Shown here: positions 12,481 to 46,824 of the stretch, piece by piece
Layout of the letters: each line of letters starts with the position of its first letter
Numbering within the stretch: position 1 is the first letter of the stretch
Notes under the pieces: model-generated
The model's input: the letters and a program-made list of their open reading frames with translations, nothing else
The model's database searches: none
Told to the model about the DNA's origin: nothing
Position numbers and translations under genes: made by a program
Assembly (NCBI RefSeq): GCF_000189635.1
Contig: NW_002476567.1
Span: 62,001 to 126,000, forward strand
Reading direction: 5' to 3'
Origin: Tetrahymena thermophila SB210
Lineage: Eukaryota; Ciliophora; Oligohymenophorea; Hymenostomatida; Tetrahymenidae
DNA length: 64,000 bases

Positions 12481-15400
12481 TCAAGCTTATTTATTTTTAG
12501 ATTTTATTTTTTAAATGAGTTGATTAATTTAGTTTTTAAAATTTATTTTATCTGTTATTGGTTTTTGAATATAAGAAAGTATATTTAGGTTTTCCATTTC
12601 TTTTATGTAATAAGATTCACTTCCTGCAGATATCAGAATTATTTCAGGCTAACTTATACTTTTTTCCATATTTCTTACTAATTACACCAGTTAAATACCG
12701 CTGATAATGGGCATTTATATGTCAGTTAATATTGCATCATATGAATCGTTTTTTATAGCATTTAATGCTTTAGTAGGGTCAACAAATTCATCAATTTCTA
12801 TTTCATTTGAAAATTCTCTGAGATTAACTTTCAGAGAAAGTATGTTAAACTGAGAATCATCAATTAAAATCATTTTTATCATTTTTTTTATATTCAAATT
12901 TTATATTTAAATTTTTTCATTATTTTCTTAGAAAAAAAGACTTGCTTTTTTGGTATTTCCTTAAATAACTCTCCTTAATTAATTATACTCTAATGCAGAT
13001 TGTTCATCTAAATATTGATTGTGGTTTTCCAAAAATATTTATATACCTTCTTAATTGTTCTAGTCTGAGGTATGTTTTGATAATTTAAAAAGCTTATTTA
13101 AATTCTCTTAAGAATCTATAAAAACATAATTGCTTTCACTTTTTAAATAGTTTGATTCAGGAGTGCTATAGCTTGTTTGATTATGAAATACATTTTTATT
13201 TGATTCACACAAAGTATTTGAAGGATCTTAATTTTCTATTATTTAATTGTTTTTCACAACTTATTACTTAATATATTTGTTTAACTCAAAATAAAATGTT
13301 GTGCCCTTTCCTTCTTCTGACTTCACTTATATTTAACTGTAGTTACTCATTATTTCTATAAATTTTTTGCAAATAATTAAGCCAAGACCTATCCCTATTT
13401 ATTTATTTATATATATATAAAAATTATATTTATACTACTATTAAATAAATAAATAAATATTTAATTTCATATACCATTTGAATTTAAATTGTACTAATTA
13501 AAAGTTCCAAATTCCTTAAAGAGATTTTTTTAAATTGTAGTATTCATGCCTACTCCTGAATCTTCTACAGATATTCCAATTTTATTTTAAGATTCTTCAA
13601 ATTGTTCTATATTTATCTTAATGAAACCTTCTAATGTAAATTTTAATGAATTAGAGATGAAATTCATTAAAATCTATTTAAGCCTATTTCTATCTGTCTA
13701 TATTATGACTTAGTTTTCATTTTATGAATTAGTACAGATTAATTAAATATTCTTTGCTTGAGCTTAAATTTGGAAAATATCAAAAACTTCTAAAACAAGC
13801 TCTATTAAATTAAACTTTTAAATATTTAATTTTATGCTATTTGCTGACTTATTTAACTGACTATAATCAAGAATGTCATTTATCATTTAAAGAAGCATCA
13901 TAGAATTTGTGTATATGATTTTTAATAGCTTTGAATGGCTAACATTTATTTTATTTGAATACTATTGGTCTTCATTTTTAAATTATTTCAGATTTTTTTT
14001 TTTTAAAGGATAAAGCTAGTTTGTTTGTGATTAACTTTTAAAATGATTAAATTAGTTACCTAATGAAGAGTCCTAAACAGAACTAAAATTAAATTAATTT
14101 TGAGCAAAATTCTTTGGTGAATTCTATTCTTCTGATATTGTTGAGCAGGTAGATTAAGTTAAATCATTTTACAAATAATCAGTAATAGAAATAATACTAT
14201 TTAGAGGAGTTTTTAAATCATGAGAAACTGTTGCTAACAATTTATCTTTGTATTCATTTAGTCTCTCTAGTTACTAGTTTCTCCTTTCAATTGAATCATT
14301 ACTCAATAGGACTAGAATTGCGAACTTTCCTTACCATATACAACTAGCATACTTAGCTATATAAAATTAATCTTTAAGACTAAAGCATTTTCTAGATTCT
14401 TTTATGCTAAGAATTTTTAATTCAACATTTGAAGCTTTAGAGAAATCTAATGAATTTTCATTATTTTTATCATAAATTTACTATCCAGCTTAAAAATTTT
14501 CTTACAGGATATCTTACAAAATAGTAATTTAATTTTCTGCAATTTATACTTAAGGTTAAAGAGTAGAATTCATTTAAATTATGTTTTATCCTTAACAATC
14601 ATTAGACACCATTTAATTTAGTTTCTATTTTAATTAAAACTCATCATTTATTTCAAAAAGCTCTTTTGTTTTATTATTGAAGTGATTTATAATTACATCA
14701 TCCCATTTGTAGATTATTTTTTATTGTGGTTAGTTTTTTTATTCACTTACTACTGTTTTACTGGTTGGATATTAGCAAGTTTTGTTATTGGAGCTCTGAT
14801 AATTTTAATTCACTTTTTCGAAAGAATATGGTGGAGTGAATATTATCATTGAAGAAGGAATTAGTAAATCTATTATTTGCTGTTGAATACTAAACTTATT
14901 TAATTGATTGTAGTTCATCACAAATTAATTTTTCCTTTATTTTTCATCATAATATTATATAAATATTATTTAAAATTCCAAAAAAGCTATGATAAAAATA
15001 TAAGGCAGATAATATATATCATGATAGTGTATCTAAAAAATTATTGTACAGAAGCCAATTATCATTGCTTTGCTTACCCAAGACTAATAAAATCTTGTTA
15101 TAATGCAAAGACAGCAAGCTTTTGATAAAGGAAAAGGTAAAAATAAAGCTAAATTTTTTTAAAATTAAAAAATAATTACTGTACAAGCGCCAAATAAAAA
15201 CATTTTATTAAACTTCATCTTCTTTCTTAACATATAAATTGTACATAATTAAAGCCATTTAAATCAAAAGGATAAAGCACATGCCTTAGTAGGCCTATTT
15301 GAAATATTTCTTTTCTTAAAATAAGATTAATTTTAAAATGATTGAATAGTGAAGTCAAAAAATATATGAGTTAAAAGTAAAGTAGAATCGTTTTTAATGA

Positions 15401-16519: not shown

Positions 16520-19500
16520 TCATAATTAGTCAATTAAAGAGTAGATCATATTTTGAAATTTAGATTTATCTACTATTGGCTTACTGATAAAAGCAGAAAT
16601 AGAAAGTCCTAGCAATTCATTATCATATTTTTCTTAGGTATCTGCTGAAACCATTATGATTAAAGGCTAGTGAATACTTTATCCTTTTTCTCTAATTTTA
16701 TGAGCAAACTAGATCCCATCCATAATAGGCATCTGCACATCAGAAAAGACAATGTCATAGTCTTTATACAAAAATTGTTTGAGAGCTTCTTCTGCAAATA
16801 AAAACTCATCTATACTCACACAACTAATAGGATTTAAATGCAATTTTAGAGTAATTAAATTATATTAAGAATCATCTACAATCATTATATTTATTTTCTT
16901 TTTTCTTTACTTCTTAGTATCCCTAATTTGCTGAGAGTTTTTGAAAATTTACTAAAAAGTATTTTTATGCTATATAATATTTCTCTACATAATAGCCTAA
17001 CTTAATGATGAACAATCTATTTAAGCAAGTTCAGTAGGAATATCGTCTTCTTATTCATAGTTAGAAGATAATTTTCTAATATTATTTGCTAAAATCGATC
17101 CCTTTTTATAAGATTAGCTAAAATTCCATTCTTAGGAGCTTGGAGAATTAGGTTGTTAATCAATAATTTTAGACAATTCAATATTCTATTGTTGTGATAA
17201 AATGTTGTTAATATTAAATTAATTTTAATTATTTTTAATTTAATCTTAGCTGTTACTATCTAAAAAATAATTATTCTTTTAAGAATATACTGTAGTAGAG
17301 TTTAGATTCAATATTCGAGGTTTTTCTATCTATTTTAATGGTGAGTCCATACCAAACTCATCTTTTATATAATGATATATATCGAATTCATTTTTCTCAC
17401 TATCATGAGTGTAACTTTTTAATATTTCAAAATAAAACTTTGATCCTTAACCTTCTGCTGAATCTACCGAAAATCCCGTACCTTTTCCAAGCATTTCAAC
17501 AAATTTTTTACAAATCGTTAATCCCAGTCCTATCCCTAATTTAAAGAAATTCCATTATAAATATGTAAATAAATAAGTTAATCAATAAATCAATCAATCA
17601 ATTTTTATAATAAATTATCTACCGTTTTGATTTAAATTTTCTTGATTAAATGTCTGGTAATCTTTAAAAAGTTGTTACTTAATTTTGTCTGACATTCCTA
17701 TTCCAGTATCCTCAACAGATATTCCAACAAGATTTTATTCTAAATTTTCTACTGCAGATACTTTAATGTATCCTTAAATTGTAAATTTTAAAGAGTTGCT
17801 CACTAAATTCATTATTATTTACTTTACTCTATTTCTGTCAGTGTTAAGTGTTATATTCATGTTTGAATCTAGAACCAGCTTTACTTATTTTGATTAAACC
17901 TAAAATGAGAAAATATCATAAACCTCCTGAATGACTTCTGATAATAGAAATTATGATACATTTGGTTTGATTTTAATTTTATTGTTAAATTTAGAATAAT
18001 CTAAAATATCATTAATCATATTCAATAACATCATAGAGTTATTATAGATTAATTATAAATACTCAAGTGATTGTTTTTTCTATTATTAATGGTTTTATTT
18101 GTTGCTACTCATTTTTTAATTCTATATTTAGTTGCTCTCAGAATTATAAATGCAATTTGAATTTGTAACTTCTAATTTAGAATCTAATAGATTTTAGTTC
18201 TTTTAGTTCTTTTAAGAAAATAGCGAAAGTTAATTTGGATATCTAATGTAAGATCCATTAATATCGGATTAGTTTAAATATTTAGTTGACCCATTAGCAT
18301 CAGATTGATTTTAATATTGAGAAGATTATTCACTATATGTTTGCATTTCTTATTATAAGTTTGTCTTGAGATAATCAGTAACTGAGATTATGCAGTTCAG
18401 AGGTGTCTTCAAATCATGTGAGACTGTTGCTAGTAGCCTATCTTTGTATTGATTTAGCTGCTACAAGTGATTATTCTTTTTTTGGAGAGACTCATTCAAG
18501 AACAAAAGTAGAATGCAGGGTTTTTTGCTCCAGATACAAATAGCATATTTAGCTCTAAAAAGTTGGGCATCAATTATAAAATGCTTTTTTGATTCCATAA
18601 CATCAAAAATCTCAAATTCTTAGTTTTAGTAATTGTTTTGTGCTTCCTAATTTTATTTAAATAAATCACTTTTCAGTTGGCATTATCCAGAAACTAGTTC
18701 TTAAAGGATATCTTCTAGGAGATATTAATTTGTTTGCTTCTCTTAGAAATTCATAGATCTTTCAGCAATTTTCTCATATGTATTGATTGTTTGGAGCTTA
18801 AATTTAATTTCAGACAAATCAGATGTTTTAAACAGCTCAGTACATTTTTAATTGGCGTATTCTATTTTAATTTCATCCCATGACATAACAGAATTGTTAT
18901 TTTCAAGGACACTGTTCTTTTTTTAATTATTATTTTACTGAAAGTATTATTTACTGCCATTTTAGCTTTAATTATCTGTATTGATCCCATTTAGTGTTTA
19001 TTTATTTAAGATGTTCAGTGAATTCTTTGTTAAATAAGATTATAATGACTACTGTAGATCATCTTTGGAAAGAATTATCATTGAATAAGGTATTAACTTA
19101 TCTATGAAATTCTATTGCAAAGACAGTTGCTAATATTTAAAATGAAACTAAATAAATTATTACTTTTCATTTTTATCTTTCATATAAAGTATCAAAAGAA
19201 GAGTTGCTTCAAAAAAGAGAGCATTAATATTTTCTTATTCTAAGAAATAACTGTAACCAAGGACTTATAGTACTATCATTGCCCCAACAATCAAAACAAA
19301 TTTAACAAGCCAATTAGAAATATAATTTAAAATCAATATCATCAATGAAGCTTATTTATTAAATACAAAATAATTTTTAATCAATTAAAAAATATTGTTT
19401 TTTGATTGGATATTTGTAATAAATCGAGATAAAAAGAAATTTTACCATATCTTCTAACATCAAGCAAAGTTTGGTTGAAAGAACATTCCATTTTTATTAA

Positions 19501-28714: not shown

Positions 28715-30940
28715 TCAATCATCTTTTTTATTTTTATAAACATCTGTCTCTTCCTAATAAGCTTTATAATGCTTAGATTTCTTCTTAGTTTCTAAAGGTG
28801 AATTTATATTTTCATCAGAGCTGTTATTTTAGTTATTTTTTAACTTTATATTATCTAAACTTTAGTTACTTAGATTATTAATACCTAAAGTAGAGGCATT
28901 TTCATCGTTGTAAAGCTACCTATTTATAAGCTGTTTGTAATAACCATTCAAATCTAATAATTCTTTATGAGAACCCTATTCTACTATTTAACCTTTTTAC
29001 ATTACATAGATTCTATCACAGTTAACTATGGTGCTAAGTCTATGTGCAACTACAATAATTGTCATTCCTCTTTTTTTAACAAGTTAATCAATGTACTGTT
29101 ATACTTAGAACTCACTTTCAGCATCTAAAGAGCTAGTTGCCTCATCAAATATCAATATCTTAGGTCTTTTAATTAATGCTCTAGCAATAGCAACCCTCTA
29201 TTTTTATCCTCCACTTAGTAGTAATCCCTTTGATCCAACTAAGGTATCTAATCCATCAGGGAATCTTTCTCTATCAAAAACAAATTCACTAACTCCTGAG
29301 ATGTCACATACTTCTTTGACAATTTCCATGCTAAAAGCATCAACACCATACACAATATTTTTTAATATAGTGGTATCAAACAATACAGGTTCTTATTGCA
29401 CAAGGCCAATTTAAGTTCTTAAGAGACCAATGCTAATATCTTTAACATTTTTACCATCTATCAATATTTAACCTTCATTGACATCATAAAATCTTTCAAT
29501 AAGTTTGATAATTGTAGATTTACCACTTCCACTTGTACCTGCAAATGCAATAAATTCTCCACCTTTAATCTAAAGACTAATATTTTTTAATACATATTCA
29601 TCTTAATTCCTGATATTGTATTTGTAGCAGACATTTTCAAATTCAATATCACCTAATAAATTTCTTCTTTTATTTTAATTATCTATTTAGCTTATTTAAT
29701 TTCTATCTGAGCTAACATCACTGTTTGTTACTTCATAACCTTAAATTGAAATTGTATTGTCATCCTTTCCTATTTGTAAAAATGAAGGCTTTAAAAATAA
29801 AAATTATGAATAATATGTATTACTTTCTGGTTAAGTAACATCAACATATATGTACTCAGACAGCCCTTATTCAGGTTTCTGATTGAAAAGTTTTACAATA
29901 GCTTCTACCATAAGATACATATTCTAATCATCAAGTCCTATAAGCTCTTTTATTGCATTATAAACCTGAATAAATGAATTAGAGTATTACAGAAGAGTTG
30001 TTATAGTACTCACTTATGCAGTCTTCTATTCCTAAATGAAATACATAGATCCATAATAAAGCACAATAATTTTTTGCAGCCTATCTAGAATTTCGCTAAC
30101 TGCATCCATTTTTGAGTTTTAGTATTAAATTTTAATACTTTGCTCAGATATTTTTTCTAATTATTTTTAATAAGTTTATATTTCTTTTGACTCTCTACCA
30201 AAAGCCTTCACAGTCATTACATTTTACATAATATCCTAGAATGTATTATCCCTATCTACCATATCTTTAAAATTATCTTTCGCTAGATTCAATTTCTATT
30301 TATTAGAATAGTGGTTCCAGAAACCTTTTAAAGCACAAAAGACCAATAAGCATAGTGAAATTTTAGTGCTTTTATAAAAAAGGAAGTAGCAATGACCTAT
30401 TGATCTAAAGATAGATTTAAGTTATCTAAATATTCTATCACCACAAGCTAAATCCATAACTGATCTAGCTCCTTAATTTGCTAATTGCTATATATGCACA
30501 AACTTAGTCATTTCAAAAAATGAAATATCTTTTGAGAGTATCTGCTAAAATATTTCAGATTGAATTTTTATTTCTAACCTTTTCTTAAATTTTGAAATAA
30601 AAATCTCTAATAAGGGCTCAGAGACGATTAAAAACAGATTTTAGTAAGCAAATACTTTGATGAGCTCTACCATCTCATCTGTTTTTCCTTAGATAGCAGC
30701 TTCGATAAAATCTTAAGTAAAGAATGGCTAATAAATATTAAAATATGTTTATACAAACAAAACAACTTAAGTTAAAAGAATCATCTTCCATTCAGATAAA
30801 AAGTATCTGAGCAAGAACTTCCTTATCTCAATCTTAGATACTTTATCAAACTAAGATTCTTTTTTTAAATTTTCTTTTTTCAATTCATTGTGAATCTTTC
30901 TATAAATGTGCTTTTCTGGTCCATAACCTTTTGTTTTCAT
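28715..30940 (-). CDS. ABC half transporter, ABCB type
   Basis: Single-exon gene of 741 aa: ATG at 30940-30938, TGA at 28717-28715. The first 420 residues contain the hydrophobic transmembrane block. The nucleotide-binding domain follows: Walker [10 protein letters not shown] (about residues 465-473), a Q-loop with LVQQEP, signature LSGGQ (about 575), Walker [17 protein letters not shown] (about 597) and H-loop VAHRLST (about 632). The C-terminal 70 residues are Asn/Ser/Lys-rich and unstructured. TM-NBD order and motif spelling match ABCB-type exporters; a half transporter would work as a dimer. Substrate and membrane are unknown, and no clear mitochondrial presequence is seen (the N-terminus is basic but not amphipathic by eye). 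All catalytic motifs appear intact. Confidence 0.92.
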
Positions 30941-31590
30941 TTATTGCAAATAACTTATTAATTAATTAACTTATATTTTTAATTACTAATTTTATTGGAA
31001 AAAAAAAAATTATTTATCAGCACAAATTAATAAACTCTATTAGAAGCAACAAAAAGATATGATCAGAAAAAAGAGTAAAATTTATCAATTAAATGTTTAC
31101 AATACGATAACTTTAAAAGGAGTCTTTATAGCCTGAATAATTTACTGAAAAATGTAAATAAGTAGAGTCTGCATATCATTTCATTTATTTAATACTAAGA
31201 GGAAAAAAATTTATTAAAAATTTAAAGTAGTTGCTCAATATCCATAAATTTTAAAAATGTATTGTACTTAATATTGAGAAATAAATTAAAGAAATTTAAC
31301 ATATTTAAATGTTAAATTGTAAAAATTATTGTTAAATGAAATATATACTATATGTTTTTAAATGCTAAGTCCACTGTTATCAAGAGATTGAATATATATT
31401 TAAAAATGAATAAAAACAAATTTTAAATATAAATTATTACATTTCTAAATTTTTCAAAATCATTAAAATTTACATTATATATTTATATACAAAAAGTATG
31501 GTTAATCAACAATAATTAAATTAATGATTTTTTCCAATATATTTTGTATATTTAATGATAAAAAATTTGAGTTGGTTTTCTACTGTAAAT
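30941..31590. other. Intergenic AT-rich region
   Basis: 5' flank of the ABC transporter and 3' flank of the TmcB-like gene. No further feature was seen. Confidence 0.6.
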
Positions 31591-44071: not shown

Positions 44072-46824
44072 ATGTCTGTTTATACTCCTTCATTATAATA
44101 CTTACTTGAAAAAGTCAATAAGTATAAATATCCATTTTGCTCTAAACATGCTGACCAAGATCCTCTTAATATGATATGTTTAGATTCTAGATGTGAACAT
44201 GAATATCAATTAGAACCTATATGCTCTATATGTGCTGATAATAACACACACAAAAAATCATTTCATATTTAGCACAATGTTCGCCAAGTTCTTAAAGATT
44301 TACTCTATTAATGTGAAGCCTTCCCTATTTCCTCTTCTGATTATACAAGTAAAAATATCATCTATATTAATTAGTTACAAATTAAATAATATTAATATTA
44401 TTTTTTAATTAAAGCAAGCGAATGTGAAAGCAAGTTAAATTGGCTATAAAAAGAATTTCATAGACTAGGAGAAGAATGTTTTTAAATTGCTAATTCCATT
44501 ACCAAGGCTATAGAATAATATAAAATATCTTAAGAGAGTGAATATGTCGAAAAATTGAAGGTAAAAAAAATTGATAATTAAAGTAGAATAAACTTTTTCA
44601 CAATAAATTTTTAACAATTAAAACAAAATAAATAAATAAAACTATTAAAGATAAAAAAACTAATTGAGGAAATTTTGGAAGTAGAGACTGAGAGAACACT
44701 GAGAAAAAACATGCAAACGATATGGTCTTTATGCAAAGTTGAAAATGAAAAAGCAATAATAAATTAGGTGAATAACTTGATAACAAAAAGAAATGTAGAA
44801 TTGAATACTATGAAATATACAGAGAGACTCTAATATACTATCAATAAAATAAATGAGTTAAAATTGGAATAACTCATAGATATTCCTTCTTTTCATAAAG
44901 ACATAATTAGGAAAAAGCTTGAATTCGATATGGATGGTAAATTTAAAACTAAGACCAATTTATTATAAAATAATTTTTAAAATTAGAAACTCTTCTTTTA
45001 GAGCAAAGAATTAAGAGCAAGGCAGATTAGGCTGTAAAAGAATCGCTCTTAGTAAAAATTTATGTTTTAAATAACTAAATAAAGAGTTCTTTATTAAAGT
45101 TCAAAGGTAATACCTATCTCAGCCCATTGCTTTCATACAAGTAGTAGATAGATGTAATTAGCTGTTTCAATATTTTTCAATATTTAATGTTTATTTTTTT
45201 ATTTTTAATTTTAAGAATGCCAAAAAGAGAGCAGTAGCAGAAGCAAACGATAAAGGAAATCATGTAATTTTTTTAATCTTAAAATATTTAAAAAATATTT
45301 TTTATTTTTAAAAAAGCCAACTTCAGTAAATTGATTAGTTCTTTTTCAAATGATATTAAAAATAATTTTTGAAATAGTTGGTAATTTAGCACATATGAAA
45401 AAATAGCAATTTAATTATTCTTTAAATTGGGCAATAGTTTGTAAAATTTTAATTTTTCCATTTTAAAAATTAAATATTTTTTAAGTGGAAGGTAAAAAAG
45501 TATTTATTTTCAGGTTTAAGAGAAACTTTAAATATACTCATGTAAAACTTAGGACGTAATTATATTTAAATTTTGGAGAATGGGAAATTTAAATTATTTA
45601 TTCAATTAAATATTTTTAGTGGGTAATTAATATTTACTATTATTATCTTCATTTTTAATTGTTTTTATCTTATAAATAAATAGGAATCAGTAACATAAAT
45701 TTAAGATTTAAAGCTTTTTATTTAAATTATTTTTATAGTTGGTAAAATTATAATTAGATTTTGGAAGTATTTTAACTTTATTTAATTATGAAAGGCCACA
45801 AACAACGGAGTAAATATTATTGAAATATTTTTATTTTAACATTTCATTAATTAATAGCAAGTAAAATTAAATAAATCTCAAATTATTAAGTCTATTTAAA
45901 ATCTAAAAATGCTAATAATATAGAAAGTAAATTAGATTAAATTAGTGTAATTTTAAAGTGTTTTCTTTTAAAATAAGTGGGTAAGACATTTTATTAGCTT
46001 TCATAATGACTATAATTAATAAATTTTATATAAATAGGGGATTGAGGTAAAGTATATAATACATTTAAAGTATATTTATCTAGTAATATCTAATAGGGCG
46101 TAATATTTATATTTCATTAATTTAAATTTATTATTTTTTTTAATATAGAAAGTAAGTTATCTTTTTCACTTTTTAACAAAGTAAATGAAATCGTTTTTAT
46201 AAAAAGCATGTAAGGAAAGCTAAAATTTATAATTTTAATTAATGAATTTCTTTTACCAAATGAAATAGCAAGTAACTTTGTTTTATTTATTTAACAATTA
46301 TTAATTTTTTTTTTAAATAGATATTTGTAAGTTTATTTTGATGATAACAAAAAGATGAAAATTTATTTAAATTTAAGCCGGTAACAAATTTTTTGACAGA
46401 AACAAAGATAATTTATTTATGACAACTTGTATAAAAAGACTGTATTAATAAATATATTATTTAAATGTAAAATATCAATAAATATTTTAATTTAATGCAA
46501 ATAGTCAGTAAAATAATTCACACTTGAATGAATCAAATTAAAAAGTAAAAATAAATCTAATAAAGGGAGTAAAATAAACTTGAAGATTAAAATATTAATT
46601 AATTGAATATTTTATAGTGGGTAATAAACATTTAATTTATTTTAGAAAAATGGTTAATTATTTTGTTTAAATAGTGTTACAAATGTTATCCTATTTACTT
46701 TGAAGCACTGAGAGAAATAGAAGTTTTAAGAAAAGAATAAAACGTAAATTATAAAATATTTTAACAAGTTTAAAATTTCGTTTTATGCTTTTAGTTATTA
46801 GAAGACTCACCAAAAAAGTATTGA
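44072..46824 (+). CDS. B-box-like zinc-binding coiled-coil protein with a run of 23 microexons
   Basis: Predicted 374-aa protein from 30 exons. Conventional exons: 44072-44348, 44415-44560, 44651-44936, 44987-45153, 45216-45263; then 23 microexons (separate entry); then 46675-46743 and 46795-46824 with TGA. All lengths sum to exactly 375 codons. The N-terminus has a Cys/His pattern (FCSKH, ICLDSRCEHE, ICSICADNNTH) like the B-box-type zinc fingers common in ciliates. Exons 2-5 encode a Lys/Glu/Leu-rich region that is probably coiled coil. The microexons encode a Trp/Gly-containing stretch. The penultimate exon begins CYKCYPIYFEALREIE. Exon 4 must be read through to 45153, not stopped at 45105, to keep phase. 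Function is unknown; B-box proteins often mediate protein-protein contacts. After the TGA a further less AT-rich stretch (46845-46886) leaves the 3' end slightly uncertain. Confidence 0.8.
45317..46620 (+). other. Array of 23 consecutive microexons (3-15 nt)
   Basis: Microexons with encoded residues: 45317-45325 PTS; 45378-45380 L; 45438-45440 F; 45486-45491 WK; 45553-45555 D; 45620-45622 W; 45684-45689 ES; 45739-45741 L; 45795-45809 ATNNG; 45858-45860 Q; 45924-45926 K; 45978-45980 W; 46038-46046 GIE; 46097-46099 G; 46149-46151 K; 46207-46209 H; 46269-46271 Q; 46321-46326 IF; 46378-46380 P; 46439-46441 T; 46505-46507 S; 46566-46568 G; 46618-46620 W. Seventeen are a single codon. All are phase 0. 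Introns on both sides are 45-64 nt. Of the 25 introns from 45264 to 46794, 24 start GTAA and one (46442) starts GTAT; all end in AG, mostly TAG. Individual calls at 45553, 46207 and 46439 are weaker than the rest because nearby alternative AG sites exist. Confidence 0.78.

Follow-up and report, generated by a model that had tools for sequence, protein, structure and literature searches.

Runs of very short exons, with lengths that are for the most part divisible by 3, have been described in the micro-exon genes (MEGs) of Schistosoma, where the exons are mostly 15 bp long, with a minimum given as 6 bp in the text and 3 in the abstract, and the introns measure 0.1-5 kb (PMC10526429). The aphid bicycle and megacycle genes likewise contain runs of microexons, nearly all of one phase and more than 100 in one gene (PMC9168663), and the LRR arrays of Tetrahymena combine uniform 90-bp exons and an extreme phase bias (phase 2) with old introns near 50 bp (PMC6564038). 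Exons of 1 nt and 3 nt are known singly, for example in Arabidopsis APC11, where a minimal exon is accurately spliced and where intron definition and recursive splicing have been proposed (PMC4674806). Here we describe a predicted gene of Tetrahymena thermophila SB210, located in a 64,000-nucleotide stretch of DNA (the window; bases 62001-126000 of contig C13, from an assembly of 101 Mb and 445 contigs; coordinates below are window positions unless a contig is named), in which 23 consecutive putative microexons, 17 of them a single codon, would divide a conserved peptide. The telomerase gene of this assembly agrees with the species: leaving aside what is probably an intron read through, one of its exons is identical across 237 aligned residues to the telomerase chain of PDB 6d6v, the T. 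thermophila enzyme.

As in the MEGs, many very short exons follow one another in this gene, but most of the 23 are one codon long and the introns of 45-64 nt fall below the 0.1-5 kb of the Schistosoma type. In architecture, the exons of the aphid bicycle genes are phase 2, whereas those in the window are phase 0 and mostly single codons in a single-celled organism. The LRR arrays come from the same genus, yet differ in exon size (90 bp, against 3-15 nt) and in phase (2, against 0), and the word microexon does not occur in the text of PMC6564038. The APC11 exon is isolated, whereas the window holds a run. Introners are near-identical introns found at many sites (PMC9860276, a text that contains neither the word ciliate nor the word Tetrahymena); this likeness is seen in kinase-linked arrays elsewhere in the genome, where the copies are tandem, one codon apart and in one phase, and not in the window, where the introns are not alike. 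Among the papers listed from the open PubMed Central literature (subscription papers, preprints and database annotation lie outside it), the available passages describe no consecutive single-codon exons, be it in Tetrahymena or in another organism; such runs go unmentioned in the available passages of the T. thermophila RNA-sequencing and proteogenomics papers PMC3274533, whose read mapping made use of an option to search for microexons, and PMC12615304. We place the gene in the window among the microexon genes, as a new and extreme form of them.

A run of putative single-codon exons and its paralogues

The 23 whole-codon units lie on the plus strand at 45317-46620, each between an AG and a GTAA (in one case a GTAT). 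Seventeen are 3 nt long, three 6 nt, two 9 nt and one 15 nt, so that all fall within the limit of 30 nt between AG and GT for a microexon, and together they sum to 102 nt, or 34 residues, with the predicted spliced reading PTSLFWKDWESLATNNGQKWGIEGKHQIFPTSGW. The 24 introns around them start with GTAA (one GTAT), end in AG and are all phase 0, and TGA is absent from all 23 units. A preliminary description, made from the letters of this DNA, had proposed these same 23 microexons in one uninterrupted phase-0 frame, and every one of them was recovered; its spacing of 49-67 nt holds at the upper bound, whereas the exon starts as recomputed are 48-67 nt apart. Likewise, its total of 375 codons agrees with our full gene model (44072-46824; 375 codons and a TGA stop), which needs 29 exons and not the 30 given there.

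The run far exceeds what base composition would produce, as the preliminary description had estimated. The segment 45264-46674 (1411 nt) contains the string AG-N3-GTA[AT] 17 times, against maxima of 5, 7 and 9 in 2000 sequences each from Markov models of orders 1, 2 and 3 built from this segment. The longest chain of units has 23 members, 17 of 3 nt, and 300 order-2 sequences gave chains of at most 8 units with at most 3 single codons. Over the whole window and both strands, AGNNNGTAA was found 58 times (32.7 expected; largest of 100 shuffles, 46), with 16 of these occurrences inside this one run. The other 42 show that single strings of this kind do turn up elsewhere in the window, as they would if the run were a chance string of AG-NNN-GTAA in A+T-rich non-coding DNA. 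That explanation is vanishingly improbable, however, because the null models stay far from 17 units or a chain of 23, and it is refuted by the match of the predicted peptide to paralogues.

A protein search of the genome placed relatives of the gene on contigs C112, C78 (two genes, C78a and C78b), C426 and C4, and weakly on C134. In C112 (560300-562300) the region that is chopped up in the window is a single, uninterrupted open frame. The two align as WRDWEELASNAKCGWGIDGKH in C112 against WKDWESLATNNGQKWGIEGKH in the spliced window and, with their flanks, as KGNH GTANYWRDWEELASNAKCGWGIDGKHSTYP..CYKC against KGNH PTSLFWKDWESLATNNGQKWGIEGKHQIFP..CYKC. Aligned globally, the spliced peptide of 34 residues scored 89 against C112 (z 11.5; mean of the shuffles 4.3, sd 7.4) and 96 against C78a (z 11.7), with 0 of 5000 shuffles as high in either case. 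For C78a, an automatic chain finder gave ASQ-K-Y-WNSWEE-LSTNNHQT-W-GLD-G-KH-A-TH-P-D-T-W (hyphens mark exon boundaries) followed by CFKCYPIYYEANKD. C78b reads Y-WK-S-W-ED-M-IDNYG-A-G-W-SQD and then more short units, although its pieces were picked by hand from AG..GT sites with the window in mind, which favours a match, and its first unit is ambiguous and SQD may be D alone. This hand-picked chain gave the weakest paralogue alignment (z 5.9; 0 of 5000 shuffles as high), and its exon size pattern 6-3-3-6-3-15-3-3-3-9 is identical to that of the window. The boundaries in C78a and C78b mostly coincide with those in the window, C78a being without introns at several of them, and C4 reads W-G-L-E-N-D-Y-K-F-I-G-N-DL-R-K. 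The copies thus differ in which codon boundaries carry introns. In C426, array matches (107616-108141) lie 3′ of the part homologous to the window gene, and C10 resembles C4, with an uncertain chain.

Because the uninterrupted C112 and the split C78a and C78b encode matching residues in the same order, the single-codon units are supported as coding exons and not as a chance string. We also considered 42-nt exons at 45514-45555 and 46400-46441 in place of the single codons GAC and ACT. The single-codon choice of the preliminary description is the better one, because the longer exons would require introns of 22 and 19 nt and would add residues that are missing from the alignment with C112. On the sequence evidence, we consider it very probable that the segment truly encodes, in split form, a conserved stretch of ~34 residues of a T. 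thermophila protein, with phase-0 introns of near-background length at nearly every codon boundary.

All parts of the gene lie on the plus strand. Exon 1 (44072-44348) holds the start codon and a Cys/His-rich N-terminal part homologous to C112, C78a, C4 and C78b. This part may loosely be called B-box-like; a Pfam search with the exon gave no match above cut-off (best, zf-Di19, E 0.033). Exon 2 (44415-44560) and the 152 codons of exon 3 (44651-45106) follow from the gene model and the protein search. Exon 4 (45216-45263), the last conventional exon before the run, ends in ..DKGNH at a boundary common to C78a (..SGH) and C78b (..KGNH), and the intron-saturated segment with its 24 introns and 23 microexons extends from 45264 to 46674. 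Microexons 1 (PTS, 45317-45325) and 2 (L, 45378-45380) correspond to ASQ and K of C78a, and microexon 3 (F, 45438-45440) to Y in both C78 genes. Microexon 4 (WK, 45486-45491) is WK in C78b and WR in C112, microexon 5 (D, 45553-45555) is D in C112 and S in C78b, and microexon 6 (W, 45620-45622) is W in C112, C78a and C78b. Opposite microexons 7 (ES, 45684-45689) and 8 (L, 45739-45741), C112 has EE and L and C78b has ED and M. Microexon 9 (ATNNG, 45795-45809) matches IDNYG of C78b, likewise 15 nt, and microexons 10 (Q, 45858-45860) and 11 (K, 45924-45926) match its A and G. Microexon 12 (W, 45978-45980) is again W in C112, C78a and C78b. Microexon 13 (GIE, 46038-46046) is GID in C112, the 9-nt GLD in C78a and three exons, G-L-E, in C4. 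Microexon 14 (G, 46097-46099) is G in C112 and C78a; microexons 15 (K, 46149-46151) and 16 (H, 46207-46209) are K and H in C112, and C78a has KH as a single exon. Microexon 18 (IF, 46321-46326) stands opposite TH in C78a and GV in C78b, both 6 nt, microexon 19 (P, 46378-46380) opposite P in C112 and C78a, and microexon 23 (W, 46618-46620) opposite W in C78a. Microexons 17 (Q, 46269-46271), 20 (T, 46439-46441, with the GTAT donor), 21 (S, 46505-46507) and 22 (G, 46566-46568) are placed as units between AG and GT. The run is followed by a 69-nt exon (46675-46743), CYKCYPIYFEALREIEVLRKEQN, which corresponds to CYKCFQIYQDALRSIEPLKKE in C112 and CFKCYPIYYEANKD in C78a, and by the last exon (46795-46824) of nine codons and the TGA stop.

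Elsewhere in the window, on the minus strand, two open frames ~2.3 kb apart (13470-15263 and 17597-19459) have HisKA and HATPase_c matches, and an ABC transporter open frame lies at 28718-31084.

Arrays of single-codon units elsewhere in the genome

The preliminary description knew of no described gene with such a run. None appeared in the available passages of open PubMed Central, as noted above, yet the run is not unique in the genome, which contains many such arrays. Three consecutive 3-nt exons matched 782 times (492 + 290) in the assembly and 17 + 22 times in a reversed control; the matches are overlapping triples, and among those listed six on C12 are simple repeats. A 4-nt version of the pattern gave 1 + 1 matches (control, 7 + 15). 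With a 6-nt exon between 3-nt exons there were 40 matches (six being the C12 simple repeats) against 9 in the control, and with a 5-nt middle exon 6 against 7. The six matches with a 5-nt middle exon all fall on array contigs (C195, C205, C287, C294, C320 and C419) and could reflect AGAG acceptors before a 3-nt unit. In most array stretches examined, one of the two strands shows a strongly prominent 3-nt class, and some stretches also have a weaker class of 6 nt. Arrays were found on at least 30 contigs, with up to 31 consecutive single-codon units in a run that includes TGA triplets.

Many arrays lie near genes of one protein kinase family. Exons with protein-kinase matches (Pfam PF00069) sit 5′ of the arrays on C26 and C29; at least 23 of 32 genomic kinase matches have an array 3′ in the same sense, at 1.7-4.5 kb, and among the array contigs listed, 20 of 30 have the array 3′ of this family. 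We infer that a kinase and its array belong to the same gene. On C26 a single chain runs to 68 units, of which 59 are single codons. Single-codon arrays were noted in stretches L038 (C26:1-10000), L039, L041-L043, L045 and L062-L067, most of those placed being 3′ of the kinase family, and several of them hold exact copies of one 69-nt intron between different codons.

These arrays, unlike the window run, contain near-identical introns at many different sites, the hallmark of introners. One 69-nt intron has 176 copies with at most 3 mismatches (reversed control, 0), at least 54 of them exact and, among the matches listed, on 10 contigs; it is unchanged on C56, C161 and C320, where the kinases share only 66-70% identity with the query across 88 residues. 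Among 48 exact copies on 7 contigs, 17 different triplets follow the intron, with a mean difference of 2.04 of 3 positions, and the same codon stands on both sides of an exact copy in 5 of 47 cases, where composition predicts a fraction of 0.113. Because exact copies separate different codons, the intron seems to spread or to be homogenised without its codon. Some of the copies depend on one another: a block on C440 repeats a block on C26 nearly codon for codon. Simple tandem duplication of codon-plus-intron units was rejected, as the flanking codons agree no more often than composition predicts; one duplication of three units (TTG TCG TGG) is visible in the kinase-linked arrays. These arrays may prove to be without known counterpart.

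In the 338 single-codon units of the kinase-linked arrays, compared with a baseline of 2160 codons, TAN, GTN, NAG and A/T-only triplets are scarce and TGA is not, a scarcity that fits the avoidance of false splice sites. In 52 hand-listed codons from the window, C4, C78a and C78b (C10 was left off because its chain is uncertain), TGA is absent, A/T-only triplets show a weak deficit (13; p 0.016), TGG (8) and GGN (6) are in excess, and TAN, GTN and NAG are not significantly scarce. Between paralogous kinase arrays, plain identity was 94.3, 89.6 and 87.5% in introns versus 69.8, 69.6 and 68.8% in exons. With stricter registering, which omitted 6, 11, 10 and 6 exons without clean registration in the four comparisons, mismatches numbered 24 versus 10.3 expected in C20/C7 and 40 versus 8.6 in C26A/C26B, and were not clearly raised in the other two (8 versus 6.9 and 5 versus 2.0). 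We make no claim of positive selection on array codons, because C20/C7 and C26A/C26B contain tandem blocks whose register cannot be trusted.

Proposed splicing and origin of the run

The splicing of the run, its order and the direction of change among the copies are what we infer from sequence. The background intron length in the genus is ~50 bp (PMC6564038), and the window introns are close to it. Each short, A+T-rich intron would be recognised as a unit (intron definition), and neighbouring introns would be removed one after another because two spliceosomes cannot occupy 3 nt simultaneously, a step repeated more than 20 times. For the 1-nt exon of Arabidopsis, it has been proposed that intron definition permits extreme exon shrinkage and that adjacent introns are removed sequentially (PMC4674806). 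As the units are whole codons, skipping one would cost one or a few residues and keep the frame, so that splicing errors would be buffered; frame-preserving skipping might in this way explain why all the introns are phase 0.

Some observations weigh against a run of functional exons formed and spliced in this manner. The last codons of the run (T, S, G and W) align poorly with C112. TGA, which alone serves as a stop in this genetic code, occupies 12 of the 338 single-codon units in the kinase-linked arrays, some at positions common to paralogous arrays (for example L038 and L039, minus strand), so that not every array of this appearance is an open frame. Finally, C112 could be the ancestral, unsplit form. 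The TGA units may represent skipped units, decay or another reading, and among the kinase-linked arrays there may be pseudogenes, tails that are not translated or units that are skipped. The window gene, whose predicted peptide is conserved, is unaffected by these TGA results.

The TGA triplets in other arrays are also what one would expect if the microexons were fossils, once coding but now either left out together by an in-frame join of 45263 to 46675 or included only in part, and since all units are phase 0 such skipping would keep the frame. We think this unlikely for the window gene: its peptide remains well conserved relative to C112 and C78a, all 24 introns keep their GTA..AG ends and no unit is TGA. 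A further alternative is that the intervening pieces are not introns at all. Internal eliminated sequences of the germline genome can split ciliate genes. However, among the contig starts examined, those of C13, C4 and C10 carry telomere repeats (CCCCAA). We take the assembly to be macronuclear, and because C13 begins with these repeats, the window segment and its intervening pieces appear to be retained after elimination. With GT..AG ends in all 24 pieces as well, it is highly improbable that they are eliminated sequences.

For the origin of the run as split coding sequence, we favour an ancestor that was already fragmented, from which C112 would have lost its introns through a spliced RNA copy. 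In C112 one frame extends over query codons 97 to 370, and the only break precedes this stretch. This is the pattern of 3′-biased loss, which is why we point to reverse-transcribed spliced RNA; loss by recombination with such a cDNA would itself be evidence that the microexons were correctly spliced. The chief competitor, to which we give somewhat less than an even chance, is that C112 is ancestral and that introns were inserted singly at codon boundaries in the other copies. The fineness of the splitting does vary from copy to copy (WNSWEE and LSTNNHQT in C78a versus WK-D-W-ES and L-ATNNG-Q-K in the window, and GIE in the window versus G-L-E in C4), and the same intron between different codons in the kinase arrays indicates that introns can spread without codons. 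Stepwise gain fits less well with the 3′-biased pattern in C112, and C112 is the only unsplit copy among the best candidates from a search with its own segment, besides the 69-nt exon of the window gene. Nor do the 24 window introns resemble one another more than shuffled sequences do (mean pairwise score 9.76 versus 9.52, sd 0.44), a result that also led us to reject an introner origin of the run.

More speculatively, a phase-locked process might place or re-copy an intron at successive codon boundaries and so build codon-intron arrays. The window run would then be an old, drifted array, and the kinase arrays young ones, with exact 69-nt copies, an intron that spreads without its codon and codons that form a fast-changing tail. 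We hold this idea tentatively and regard it as doubtful.

Implications for exon size and intron gain

In a standard laboratory organism, exon size would here go down to one codon repeatedly within one gene (17 of 23 units), stretching the known limits on how small exons can be and how far introns can spread. The arrays pose the testable question of how the spliceosome copes with a long series of splice sites that lie 3 nt apart. They also make intron gain directly testable, because identical introns recur at many sites in the young arrays. Gene models and RNA-sequencing mappings of such genes, the kinase family included, may well be wrong, since exons this short are difficult to map. If true, phase-locked intron placement would amount to a way of gaining introns that is categorically new, and it might also be a system for diversifying peptides.

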